Shown piece after piece: positions 13,966 through 19,032 of a stretch of 64,000 nucleotides of DNA. The stretch is from assembly GCA_029860345.1 (NCBI GenBank), contig JAOUBJ010000015.1:62001-126000 (forward strand), in the 5' to 3' direction. Position 1 is the stretch's first letter; each line of letters starts with the position of its first letter. Position numbers and translations under genes: made by a program. Under the pieces are notes generated by a model that had not been told where the DNA came from, did not search any database, and was given only the letters and a program-made list of their open reading frames with translations. This DNA is from Candidatus Zixiibacteriota bacterium. GTDB taxonomy: Bacteria; Zixibacteria; MSB-5A5; GN15; FEB-12.

Positions 13966-15645
13966 TCAGTCCCCCGGCTCCACAAACCACTCAGGGGCCA
14001 GTCGTTCGGTGATTGCTACGATCTTGCTGTCCAGTTCTGCTAATGCGCCGCGTTCTATCAGATCGTCGATTACGCGGTGCAACATCACCACCCGGTCACG
14101 CATGGGAATCATGGCCGGATAGTATTCATTGTTGAAGAAGATACGGAATTGTTTACGTCGATCCTCATCGGCGAGGTGATCGCCAATAGCTCGTTCAAGA
14201 TCGGCACCTTTGAGTTCGGTCAGGTCCGTCTTCGGCGACGACAAGAGTTTGGTTGAATGCTCAAGGGAGTTCTCAGCCTTAAGACGCAGACACCAACATT
14301 CCATCAAGCCCATCGAGTTGACGACGAAAACATTGACCGTGACACAATCGGCTTCATGGTCTGCTTTTACACCCTCCATCAAGGGCAGGTAGTAATTGTC
14401 GGTGATGGCGCCGAAGGCAGCGATACCGCCCGCGAATGGGTCTTCGAGTATATCGTGAATTGTGAAGTGTGGTTTGTGTTCGAAACGGGCATCCTGAATC
14501 ATGATGAATTCATCTTCGGTAAAATTGAATCGCTCGTTCCACTGCTTGGCCGGGTCCCGGTCTTTTCGCGACAAGGCCGACTGACTGGTCAGCATACCTA
14601 TTGCCTGCCCGCCTCGCCAGACCAGCGGCAGGACCCCCACCGCCCACTCGGCCGAGCCGCCAATCTCGCCTATCATAGCGTCAAGCCTTCGTCCATTGGG
14701 GAAACTGATTCCCTCGTGACCCAGAACTACCGCCGGAAACAGGTCGCCGTCTTTGTCATAGGGGGTGGTGATTCCAGCCTCATTCAGTTGGTCCATGGCC
14801 GGGTAGTGTCGTTTGCGGTCGAGGAAGAAGGCGCTCAGTTCGTTTACCTCAGACATGCCATAGGCTGCGGCCACGGCTGCCGCGCTGTCGACCAGACTCA
14901 TTTCACGAGGGTTGAAATCATGAAACCACGCCCCGGCCATCCAGCGCTGCACATAAATGTCGGGGAGGTGACGCTTGACATTGGACTCAGTCAGAAACAA
15001 GGCAGTCAGACTGGAGTGCTGCCCCGTCACCGATTTGGTGGTGCCTTCGATCACGTCGTTGCCCATCGACAGCAAAGTCACGCTGGCCGGCATCGATGTT
15101 CCGTAGCGCTGCCTATGTTGCGGTTTTCCGAACAGCGCTCCGACTGCGATGGTGGGATTGCCGCCCGCTTCGTAACCCGGTTTGACTCGTACTCCTTCGG
15201 TTATGGTGCTTTCAATGAGAACCTCTTCACCAACGGGTAAGCGCTCTGTAGTGGTTTGAAGCACCTGAGCCATGACCTGGGCGGCCGTTCGGTCGTTGTC
15301 CCTTTTGAGAGAGTTTGTCAGTTCCTTTGTGATTTGTTCTTTGGGTACTCTGTTCAAACTGCCGCGGCCGGTGAGTCCGACGGCTACGGCCGAGAGAGCC
15401 GCTGCCACAATTGCGGATTCACGCAATTGACGATTGCGTAGCGCTCCCAGGTTTGATTGCAGGTTAAACTTGTCGCAAATAACCGTCACAGCGGCAGAGT
15501 CCAATTGAAGGCCGCAGTTCCTAAGGACGGTACCATGGCGGTGATTAAACTCGATGATGCGATCTTCGTTGAACTCATGGACCTCTCGCTGTCCATCGTA
15601 TACTATTCGTTGATCGGCGATGTCAAATCGCAACTGACTATTCAT
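13966..15645 (-). CDS. Divergent GlpX-like (class II fructose-1,6-bisphosphatase fold) protein
   Basis: The 559-residue protein can be followed along GlpX by eye. It has RESAIVAAALSAV...GRGS (GlpX ESAALAG...GRGD), then NDVIEGTTKSVTGQHSSLTAL (GlpX VDPIEGTRMTAMGQANALAV), PDIYVQRW (PDMYMEKL), DKDGDLFPAVV (IPDGDVAASI) and GEIGGSAEW (YGIGGAPEG). It is about 220 residues longer, with an N-terminal extension of some 75 residues and inserts. Asp of GRGD is Ser96 and the GEGEID acid pair is replaced by ESTITE (about 144-149), so metal binding is doubtful. ATG 15645 is the first ATG consistent with the conserved part; a TTG at 15762 is possible. The ribosome site is weak. There is no signal peptide, so it is probably cytoplasmic. 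Sugar-phosphate hydrolysis or a regulatory role are both open. Confidence 0.65.
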   Translation of the reverse strand: MNSQLRFDIADQRIVYDGQREVHEFNEDRIIEFNHRHGTVLRNCGLQLDSAAVTVICDKFNLQSNLGALRNRQLRESAIVAAALSAVAVGLTGRGSLNRVPKEQITKELTNSLKRDNDRTAAQVMAQVLQTTTERLPVGEEVLIESTITEGVRVKPGYEAGGNPTIAVGALFGKPQHRQRYGTSMPASVTLLSMGNDVIEGTTKSVTGQHSSLTALFLTESNVKRHLPDIYVQRWMAGAWFHDFNPREMSLVDSAAAVAAAYGMSEVNELSAFFLDRKRHYPAMDQLNEAGITTPYDKDGDLFPAVVLGHEGISFPNGRRLDAMIGEIGGSAEWAVGVLPLVWRGGQAIGMLTSQSALSRKDRDPAKQWNERFNFTEDEFIMIQDARFEHKPHFTIHDILEDPFAGGIAAFGAITDNYYLPLMEGVKADHEADCVTVNVFVVNSMGLMECWCLRLKAENSLEHSTKLLSSPKTDLTELKGADLERAIGDHLADEDRRKQFRIFFNNEYYPAMIPMRDRVVMLHRVIDDLIERGALAELDSKIVAITERLAPEWFVEPGD

Positions 15646-15829
15646 TGGAAATGTGCTCTGCCTGGTTTCAGGTTCAACAACCGGCCGTCGATTGTCTCGT
15701 TCGGCACTAACTCGGTCAACTTCGCGTTTGTAACAGGTAACGAACCGTGGCGCGGCAGGCAAGCATTATTATGCGATTCGATGTCGAATTTCGACCATCG
15801 CGTGTCGGAAAAGATCGCGCGACGACCAT

Positions 15830-15862
15830 AAAAAAGACCGCTCCCGGATTACAGGAGCGGTC
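15830..15862 (-). terminator. Rho-independent terminator of the thioredoxin-fold/dockerin gene
   Basis: On the minus strand GACCGCTCC and GGAGCGGTC form a stem around a short loop and are followed by TTTTTTA. It lies 30 bp beyond the stop at 15892, so the TGA-containing reading frame has a terminator of its own at its far end. Confidence 0.9.
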
Positions 15863-15891: not shown

Positions 15892-17283
15892 TTACGGAGC
15901 ACAGGTCGGGGGCGGCGGTCCGCCGGTGAACATGAAGTCAACCAGGTAGACAAGGTCGGAAATGTCGATAGTGCCGTCGATACTGCCGTCAACATTACCG
16001 GCTTCCGGGCATGGTGGGGGAGGCCCACCGGTGAACATGAAGTCAACCAGATAAACCAAATCCGAGATATCGATGTTTCCACCGGCGTCATCATCGACAT
16101 TGCCGCGCACCACGCAGCACTGGATGTGAACGGGGTGGACGGCCGACCACTCGGTTTGCGCTCCGAAAACATCCTTTGCCCGAACCATAACCTCGTAGTC
16201 ACCCTCGGCGTAGGTATGACCGATTGTGCAGGGTGCACCCGAAGTATACGGACCATACCACTCGCTGACTTTGGAGCCATCACCCCAATCCCACTGATAC
16301 TGTAGGTCATCATCGTCGACATCGGAAGTGGCGGTCTCAAACATGTATTCGACGCCATCGACACCGTTGTCCGGTCCCGCATCGACTACCGGTTGATCCG
16401 GCATACTGTTGGCCGAGACACCATTGCCGATTCGCACCGTGACTTCATAGTTGTCACCGGTGCCACCGACTTGCTCCATTCTGACTATCAGGTCCAAGTC
16501 GGGTACCACGCGTTGGCTGGAGGTGCCGATCATGTTGCGCATAGCGGTGGATGAGGTTCCGATATATAGCAGGTGGCCGCCGTCGGAATAAATCGTGGGC
16601 GTCCAGGCGGCATTGAGTTCATTGCCGCGCATACTGGCGTTGGAATTGTGACTGACAACGAGAGCTGTGTACAGGAAATTGTACGTTCCTGCGCCGTATA
16701 GACCGTGCAGCGCGACCCGCGCTGCGGGACAGCTCCCTCAGTACTTTTGCGTCAGTTCCTCCACGAACACCGTGTGCGTGTAGTCCTGATTGCTAATGTT
16801 TTGACCGGGAGCGCCCGGTGCGGCCATGGCTGCTGCCTCGGCCCAGTATGCAAAGAACGGGTTGCCCGAGGGCGGGTCGGAGTACTGGGTGTAAGGGGTG
16901 GCGTTGAACACTACCGACTGGGCCACAAGGTTGTCGGGATCAATGCTGTAAAACCCGTTGTCACTGGCGTCCCACTGAACCACGTGTGTGTACACCTCAA
17001 GGTCGTTGATGCTCAGTGTAACGGTGGGGCCAGCCCAATCCAGCATGCCGAAAGCATAGTTGTCATTGTTCAAGTCGGTGTAGCGCGACACCGGCTCCGA
17101 CATATAGATCCGTAATGTCCCCTGATAGAGCGATTTCTCGCCGCCGGACACAGGCTGAACGAGTTCGATGGGATCGCCGATTAGCTCGGGCACCGGTGTG
17201 GCGTCAAAAGCCTGGGCCATCGGCATGATCGAAATCGCCACAATCAGGGCGAGAACGACCGCGAACCTAATACCGCTTTTCAT
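15892..17283 (-). CDS. Candidate selenoprotein: secreted thioredoxin-fold, PKD and dockerin protein read through an in-frame TGA
   Basis: One frame runs from ATG 17283 to 15892, interrupted only by TGA at 16740-16738. Decoded as selenocysteine it gives 463 residues. A signal peptide (1-25) and a beta-rich domain (to about 165) are followed by a thioredoxin-like domain with HTVFVEELTQKY-U182-G-S-C185-P and the cis-Pro signature W-T-P229-T-I-Y. A PKD domain (about 295-388, WDWGDG) and two dockerin-like repeats (393-463) complete it. The TGA stands at the first Cys of the expected CxxC, as in Omp28-like/thioredoxin proteins, and a SECIS-like hairpin follows. Coding character continues for 35 codons between the TGA and the next ATG (16632), which has no clear ribosome site. 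GAGGAGA precedes ATG 17283. Alternatives: nonsense mutation, sequencing error, or two ORFs (16738-17283 and 15892-16632). The likely role is extracytoplasmic thiol/selenol redox. Confidence 0.75.
16707..16725 (-). promoter_or_regulatory. Bacterial SECIS-like hairpin
   Basis: On the minus strand GCAGCGCG (16725-16718), loop GGU (16717-16715) and CGCGCUGC (16714-16707) form a perfect 8-bp stem. It starts 12 nt after the TGA and its loop starts 20 nt after it. This matches the general bacterial SECIS layout of a short hairpin just downstream of UGA with G early in a small loop, as in E. coli fdhF. A competing CCCGC/GCGGG hairpin overlaps it. Confidence 0.6.
16738..16740 (-). other. In-frame TGA, candidate selenocysteine codon
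   Basis: It is codon 182 of the frame starting at 17283, at the position of the N-terminal active-site Cys of a thioredoxin-fold motif (U-G-S-C). TGA is a normal stop elsewhere in the window, so genome-wide recoding to Gly or Trp is unlikely. Confidence 0.65.
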
Positions 17284-17428: not shown

Positions 17429-18616
17429 TCAACGCTTCAGCGACACACCCACCGTTACCATCCAGCCGTAGTAATTGTATTCCTTGATGGTTGAAGAGTT
17501 GTCCCGATACGATATCAGCAGAGACGGCTCGACATAAAAGCCTGAGATTCCATCGGGGATCGGCATTTGGGCGCTCACAAAAGCACGCGACTGGTCATCT
17601 TCACGATCATGTGGCAGGTAGGCCGGAATCCATGCATCTTCAATCTGCGGGTGCGGTATTGAGTCCAGCACCAGTGTAGCCAGATGTGTTTTGTCCCAAT
17701 AACCTACGCCAAAAGTAGTAATCAATTTCGGTACAAGAAAGGTCTTGATCTTCATGAAAACGCCGATCCCTTCGTAAAGCGGCGATAAGGGGTCAAGTAC
17801 ACCGGAGGCAGCTCCGGCTACGATCACATTTCCGCCCGATGCGAACTTTCTGAAGGCCGCCGTTACGTTCAAGCCGGACTTAGTCCCCAAAGGTCGAGAG
17901 AAAGTGGGAGAGAAGTAGAGAGTGCGTAGTCTTCGACCATAAGACACTTCCGCCGTGTCGAGGCTGAGAGTCTCGAAATTCAAAAACTCGACCAGAATGT
18001 CTTCATCGTATCTGGTCTGGGCTGCTCCCACTTCCAGATCAAGAGCGTTGGAGCCGAAGACATTGATATTAGCGCCGGCCACGATGTCCAGTTCAATTTT
18101 ATCGTTGATGACACCGTCACCGGGTACAGTTTCCGTATAGTCGGTAAACCGCCAGGAGCTATTGGCTCGTAAGTGCACTCGCGGCCTGAACTGATAACCG
18201 GTCGACAACATAACAGCATACGCGTTGGTATTGTACGCTTGCAGACTGTCGCCTGAGAAGCTCTTGCGTTCAAACTCACCCTGGATGTGCAAGGCCAGTC
18301 TGGAGCCGGGCGTCAAAGGAATGTAGGTGGCCTGCAAACCTCGTGCAAAACTGGACAGCGGGGATGTTTCTTTGTAGCGGTTGTAATCTCCGCTACCGGA
18401 AAGTTCGAGACTGCTTACGGGGTAGTACCTGAGGCCGGCATGGCCACCGGTTGAGTAATCGGTGACACGGTTTTCGACATCGAACAGGTTGCCGTTGTAA
18501 CCTTCGTTGGCGCTCAACTCCACTGCCACGTCAGCTTGCACTGAGACTGCGGCCAGCGTGCAGAGCACCAGCGCCAGCCGAACTATGAGACCGGTCGGAG
18601 GGGGGAGGCTGCTCAT
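17429..18616 (-). CDS. Outer-membrane beta-barrel protein
   Basis: The 395-residue protein has a signal peptide (hydrophobic LIVRLALVLCTLAAVSVQA). It is followed by many alternating amphipathic strands (for example LRYYPVSSLELSGSGDYNRY and YYGWMVTVGVSLKR at the C-terminus), typical of FCB outer-membrane barrels. The start codon overlaps the stop of the preceding gene by 4 bp (ATGA, 18613-18616), so the two are translationally coupled. No transport specificity can be read. The product is probably a porin-like or structural barrel, perhaps working with its small calcium-motif partner. Confidence 0.75.
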   Translation of the reverse strand: MSSLPPPTGLIVRLALVLCTLAAVSVQADVAVELSANEGYNGNLFDVENRVTDYSTGGHAGLRYYPVSSLELSGSGDYNRYKETSPLSSFARGLQATYIPLTPGSRLALHIQGEFERKSFSGDSLQAYNTNAYAVMLSTGYQFRPRVHLRANSSWRFTDYTETVPGDGVINDKIELDIVAGANINVFGSNALDLEVGAAQTRYDEDILVEFLNFETLSLDTAEVSYGRRLRTLYFSPTFSRPLGTKSGLNVTAAFRKFASGGNVIVAGAASGVLDPLSPLYEGIGVFMKIKTFLVPKLITTFGVGYWDKTHLATLVLDSIPHPQIEDAWIPAYLPHDREDDQSRAFVSAQMPIPDGISGFYVEPSLLISYRDNSSTIKEYNYYGWMVTVGVSLKR

Positions 18617-19032
18617 ATCCCGCAGTTACCGCCGGGACAGGCTTCGGAACCGACCAGATCTTCCCCACTGTTACTCATGAAACCTGCCGTCAAACTGCAG
18701 CGGGAGATACAGACCGAACGCGTGACGAACTTCCGTTGCCCAAAACTCTGAGACTTGGAAAAGAGTACCGGCTTGAAAGGCAGTCCGGTGGATTGGCCAC
18801 CAAACACATCAGCGGCCGACGCCAGCATCTTTGGTACGACAACCGGTACGACCTGGTCGGGTACGCCGTCTTTATTGACATCGGATTCGTTGTCGTCAAA
18901 TCCGTCGCCGTCCAAATCCACAAACACTTCGACGCTCTTGGCCGCATCGTCTGCCCAGATGGGCCCTCCTGTATGGATCGTTAACAGGGCTCCCATTACA
19001 ATCAAGCACAACTTCAGTAATCTCACGGTCAT
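18613..19032 (-). CDS. Small secreted protein with calcium-binding EF-hand-like motifs
   Basis: The 139-residue protein has a signal peptide (about 1-27) and an acidic segment DLDGDGFDDNESDVNKDGVPD (residues about 39-59) that resembles tandem thrombospondin type 3/EF-hand calcium loops. A Cys-containing C-terminus (CISRCS, EACPGGNCGI) follows. GGAGG lies 10 nt upstream of the ATG. It is the first gene of a two-gene operon with the barrel gene it overlaps by 4 bp, which suggests that the two act together at the outer membrane (inference). No named family is recognised. Confidence 0.7.
   Translation of the reverse strand: MTVRLLKLCLIVMGALLTIHTGGPIWADDAAKSVEVFVDLDGDGFDDNESDVNKDGVPDQVVPVVVPKMLASAADVFGGQSTGLPFKPVLFSKSQSFGQRKFVTRSVCISRCSLTAGFMSNSGEDLVGSEACPGGNCGI

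Follow-up and report, generated by a model that had tools for sequence, protein, structure and literature searches.

An exported thioredoxin-fold protein family of Candidatus Zixiibacteriota with a predicted selenocysteine at its redox site

Does the TGA that interrupts a long reading frame in a Candidatus Zixiibacteriota genome end a protein, or does it encode selenocysteine (Sec), and if so, in what kind of protein? The locus lies at 15892-17283 (-) of the window, by which we mean the whole 64,000-nucleotide stretch analysed (contig JAOUBJ010000015.1, positions 62,001 to 126,000). A sequence-only reading had proposed a secreted, thioredoxin-fold selenoprotein with PKD and dockerin domains, in which TGA takes the place of the first Cys of a CxxC site. 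The frame itself is as that reading described it, flanking residues included: it runs from ATG 17283 to TAA 15892 on the (-) strand, and its sole interruption is the TGA at 16740-16738, codon 182 of 463 (U182). The surrounding residues are ELTQKY-[TGA]-GSCPAARVALHG, which become ELTQKY-U-GSCPAARVAL when translated with Sec, and the cis-Pro loop WTPTIYSDGG lies about 45 residues C-terminal of the TGA codon.

The residues on both sides of the TGA fall into a coherent series of domains. The N-terminus resembles a signal peptide (17209-17283 (-); MKSGIR, a hydrophobic stretch and AQA), and by a crude pattern 63 of the 68 family members have a comparable one. An AlphaFold2 model built with the family alignment (pLDDT 93) has an all-beta N-terminal domain followed by a thioredoxin fold; the former is a beta-sandwich (16816-17127 (-)) that carries the A2 consensus motif YxGxLRVYxVEPxSRWxD, and the latter (16516-16779 (-)) has the CxxC/UxxC motif at a helix start, the cis-Pro loop and thioredoxin topology, with thioredoxins as the closest PDB matches of the model. 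Four columns alone are invariant in an alignment of 61 sequences: His145, U/Cys157, Cys160 and Pro204 (A2 numbering). Behind this domain stands the predicted PKD domain, now confirmed by Pfam PF18911 (16144-16395 (-); 34.3 bits, cut-off 27).

The C-terminus is a double EF-hand/dockerin-like repeat (15895-16122 (-)), with two copies of IDISDLVYLVDFMF. The dockerin label given to it earlier is weakly supported: the repeat does look dockerin- or EF-hand-like, but the window copy matches no dockerin model in Pfam, and only two of 11 sibling repeats match dockerin type I (PF00404), marginally, with a best E of 3e-4. The same double repeat (IDISDLVYLVDFMFTGGPPPP) recurs at about 150 places in the window genome, at the ends of otherwise unlike proteins, suggesting a sorting or attachment module. 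As for the proposed dedicated terminator, a hairpin of 11 pairs with a T tail does lie 3′ of the stop (15836-15862 (-)), but such terminator-like sites near 15862-15836 are no commoner than in shuffles. A plasmid comparison gave no match. The 598-aa protein encoded at 13966-15762 (-) has a partial-length match to glpX-type fructose-bisphosphatase (PF03320, E 7.6e-12) and is unusually long for that family.

Homologues were sought in 132 genomes of Candidatus Zixiibacteriota, and the family was found in 51 of these. Of 70 aligned segments, 44 have TGA in the column of U182, 24 have Cys, and two fragments are gapped there; all 68 homologues covering the position thus have TGA or Cys and no other residue. 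Other TGA columns of the family alignment occur once each, and we treated them as noise. The window genome also has, on contig C2, a paralogue (45% identity) whose only TGA falls at this site (GSGG-U-TTCPQARAAL). With a 15-member family alignment as query we also found relatives in Thermoplasmatota archaea, all of which have Cys in this column; a contig search with the window's own 105-aa stretch alone found no relatives. On the tree, Sec and Cys have been exchanged at least eight times on well-supported branches and 15 times on the best tree; Sec has been replaced by Cys repeatedly in this family, as in thioredoxin-type selenoproteins. The family gene also stands in tandem copies (L086 in G094:C361, and others in G064, G066, G067, G069, G081, G096, G013 and G018), with a Sec version next to a Cys version in several of these cases.

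This distribution bears on the simplest alternative, that the TGA is an ordinary stop, left by a pseudogene or by a sequencing or assembly error, or separating two proteins (residues 1-181, then a new start at ATG 16632). The N-terminal half would be plausible as a beta-domain protein, and ATG starts do exist downstream; nevertheless, TGA is present in 44 independent genes from dozens of genomes, with Cys as the only alternative, and the paralogue shares it. Because the 35 codons from the TGA to the next ATG are conserved, including an invariant Cys, we consider a pseudogene, a sequencing error and a split gene to be excluded, and the compensatory changes that maintain the hairpin described below also oppose a stop. 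We therefore regard this reading as very improbable.

Decoding as Sec would require the corresponding machinery, and the search for selA, selB, selC and selD that the earlier proposal called for found them all. The window genome (4.76 Mb, 99.3% complete) encodes SelA with SelB adjoining, a tRNA-Sec with anticodon TCA, and SelD, which is itself a selenoprotein with a single in-frame TGA at the expected UxxK site (SCAG-U-ASK) and a hairpin 3′ of that TGA; the full set of SelA, SelB, SelD and tRNA-Sec (UCA) is thus in place. Presence of the machinery is necessary but discriminates little across the phylum, because SelA occurs in 122 of the 132 genomes (92%). In one relative the SelA gene (G058:C64:9957-11036) has one in-frame TGA of its own, which is either an error or real.

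UGA is recoded in some uncultured phyla, and the codon could in principle be read as another residue, through recoding to Trp or Gly or through leaky read-through. We judge this to be extremely improbable: UGA is an ordinary stop in both upstream neighbours of the gene (c2 and c3, described below), the column alternates with Cys only and never with Trp or Gly, and both the Sec machinery and a SECIS element are present.

That element is the perfect 8-bp hairpin with a GGU loop which had been noted 12 nt after the TGA, and which we found at 16725-16707 (-). Its sequence, GCAGCGCG-GGT-CGCGCTGC, is unique in the window. The bSECIS model specifies a stem of 4-16 bp, a loop of 3-9 nt that has G in its first two positions, a distance of 16-37 nt from the UGA and an energy of <= -7.5 (PMC13188914), and the window hairpin passes it, at -18.5 kcal/mol and with the apical GGU loop beginning at +20 nt after the TGA. 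Rfam yielded nothing at this place, its hits being chance ones only. The single-sequence fold of the region is no better than shuffles (z -0.2 to -1.35), and we therefore shifted the test to synonymous-codon shuffles and to the Cys genes of the family.

There the difference is clear. The bSECIS model is passed by 37 of 44 Sec genes versus six of 24 Cys genes (Fisher p 2.6e-6), and the mean stem of Sec genes is 6.16 bp against 2.98 +/- 0.23 in synonymous-codon shuffles (z 13.6), whereas that of Cys genes is 2.46 bp against 2.22 +/- 0.20 (z 1.2). In 18 genes that share one register, two-sided compensatory changes occur at six of the eight stem pairs, and the covariation score is 0.485, compared with 0.199 +/- 0.032 in shuffles and no more than 0.13 when slid. 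On the tree the stem accompanies Sec in all informative independent pairs and never the opposite, with a sign test over phylogenetically independent pairs that is borderline on starred branches alone (median p 0.0625). L089 lacks a hairpin at the usual place, and the stem of L080 is 3 bp only.

From the machinery, the TGA/Cys column and the SECIS comparison we infer, with near certainty, that the TGA is decoded as selenocysteine, so that the central proposal of the sequence-only reading is strongly supported. The product is very probably a Sec-containing, exported thiol-disulfide oxidoreductase. We propose that the UGA would be read by the genome's own SelA, SelB, SelD and tRNA-Sec, steered by the hairpin 12 nt downstream; that the predicted signal peptide would export the product; and that the EF-hand/dockerin-like tail probably holds it in an extracytoplasmic or surface position. 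Fold and motif suggest that the selenol would attack a partner's disulfide or thiol, with Cys185 resolving the mixed bond.

What that partner might be is suggested by two conserved genes that lie upstream of the selenoprotein gene in the same direction and which, like the relation to Omp28-type proteins discussed below, the sequence-only reading had missed. The nearer, c2 (17429-18616 (-)), codes for 395 aa predicted to form an outer-membrane beta-barrel (pLDDT 86), and c3 (18613-19032 (-)) for a secreted protein of 139 aa; this contains a DxDGDGxxD motif and, at its C-terminus, the invariant motif CxGGxC, which in the window is CPGGNC (18622-18639 (-)). The end of c3 overlaps the start of c2; a second Sec at the TGA with which c3 stops was considered and rejected, as that codon acts as an ordinary stop and no conservation extends past it. 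The c3 proteins form an undescribed family of small secreted proteins in their own right (L164-L181 and L198, besides the window copy).

The commonest arrangement in the phylum, present in most contigs, is c3-c2-selenoprotein gene, the last in one or two copies, and the genes co-occur: c2 is found in 47 of the 51 genomes with the family versus 12 of the 81 without, and c3 with CxGGxC in 43 of 51 versus four of 81 (p 7e-22). In the four exceptional genomes c3 or c2 lies at a contig end, where a family gene would be cut off. Paralogues of c3 in genomes without the family lack CxGGxC; their tails differ, many being CDGTG-rich and basic.

Judged by gene order and co-occurrence, the likeliest partner would be the CxGGxC dithiol of c3, acting at the c2 outer-membrane beta-barrel. 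This is the least certain step of the mechanism, and we give roughly even odds to the c3 tail serving as redox partner for the UxxC site. The Sec protein could instead act on other substrates, as a surface disulfide isomerase or reductase or in peroxide or metal detoxification, with c2 and c3 merely co-transcribed neighbours from an independent export or porin system. Paralogues of c2 and c3 without CxGGxC do occur in genomes without the family, and some family members have no c2 and c3 nearby; G097, G101, G102 and G108 lack both genes, and the second copy in the window genome (contig C2) stands alone; against this, it is the CxGGxC tail itself, and not just c3, that tracks the family. We hold such other substrates to be possible, if on the doubtful side.

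With c3 as the preferred partner, the wider picture would be a selenium-dependent, phylum-wide redox system of the cell surface, in which an exported UxxC protein (the Omp28 layout, circularly permuted), a small dedicated CxGGxC protein and an outer-membrane barrel move electrons or make and break disulfides outside the cell; we think this may equally well be right or wrong. The role of the family is probably in cell-surface thiol chemistry. Its value lies partly in pointing from an exported selenoprotein to one definite candidate partner, a hypothesis that is directly testable with purified proteins and laboratory strains. The natural Sec/Cys exchanges, at least eight in number, are material for asking why Sec is kept. 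Annotation with the standard code halts at UGA, and the protein will thus probably be deposited as two unrelated fragments.

How, then, does the family relate to known ones? In Pfam and NCBIfam the window protein has no named match except PKD, and neither the family nor its architecture was found in Pfam, NCBIfam, PDB or the literature searched, within which the earlier statement that no described family has this layout holds; an unnamed mention in the supplementary tables of large MAG surveys with automatic selenoprotein prediction is possible. This selenoprotein family, of the UxxC thioredoxin-fold kind and rich in Sec (44 of 68 members), was previously undescribed and adds to the 119 selenoprotein families and subfamilies listed in a 2026 review (PMC13188914). 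With the thioredoxin and thiol:disulfide interchange selenoproteins (PF00085/PF13098) the family shares the UxxC motif, the cis-Pro loop and the fold; unlike them, it has an extra beta-domain, a PKD domain, a repeat and its own gene cluster, and the window protein has no match to PF00085 above the gathering score, the best family member reaching E 5e-4.

Closest among the models is NF045500, 'Omp28-related selenoprotein', which corresponds to the UxxC protein listed in that review as 'hypothetical protein GOS_C' (PMC13188914 Table 1). It resembles the window protein in having UxxC in a thioredoxin-like domain, a region which weak matches and profile comparison indicate to be common to Omp28-like proteins, and in carrying a similar C-terminal repeat, and one might take the window protein for a plain member. 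However, its score is 20.3 bits where the cut-off is 200, all of it from the C-terminal repeat and not the redox domain, and no protein in the 132 genomes passes that cut-off. The order of domains, as read from profile positions, differs too: in NF045500 the thioredoxin motif occupies profile positions 32-69, close to the N-terminus, and the beta-domain follows, whereas in the window protein the beta-domain comes first. Plain membership is in our view improbable. The Omp28 family outer membrane lipoproteins (NF033782) show distant similarity around the thioredoxin motif, but the score is 15 bits against 150, the domain order is permuted and the model is not one of a selenoprotein.

The Thermoplasmatota homologues (L117, L119, L120, L122-L127, L130, L137 and L140-L143) match the family over both the beta-domain and the CxxC domain, at 34-43% identity; they differ in having Cys rather than Sec, in lacking c2 and c3 nearby and, for some, in the opposite domain order, the thioredoxin half preceding the beta half in several. 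In silico permutation of the Zixiibacteriota profile gave one continuous end-to-end alignment with these archaeal permutants (237 columns, score 459), whereas without permutation the alignment broke into two parts (266 and 189). In profile comparison the thioredoxin part also aligns with the Omp28-like proteins of the phylum, and the permuted profile aligns with that set over nearly its full length; because it gains no score, the link to Omp28 proper is weaker than that to the archaeal permutants. A single family contains both orders, thioredoxin-beta in some archaea (L119, L120 and L140-L143), which is the Omp28-like order, and beta-thioredoxin in Zixiibacteriota (L039-L105) and other archaea, a circular permutation common to bacteria and archaea.
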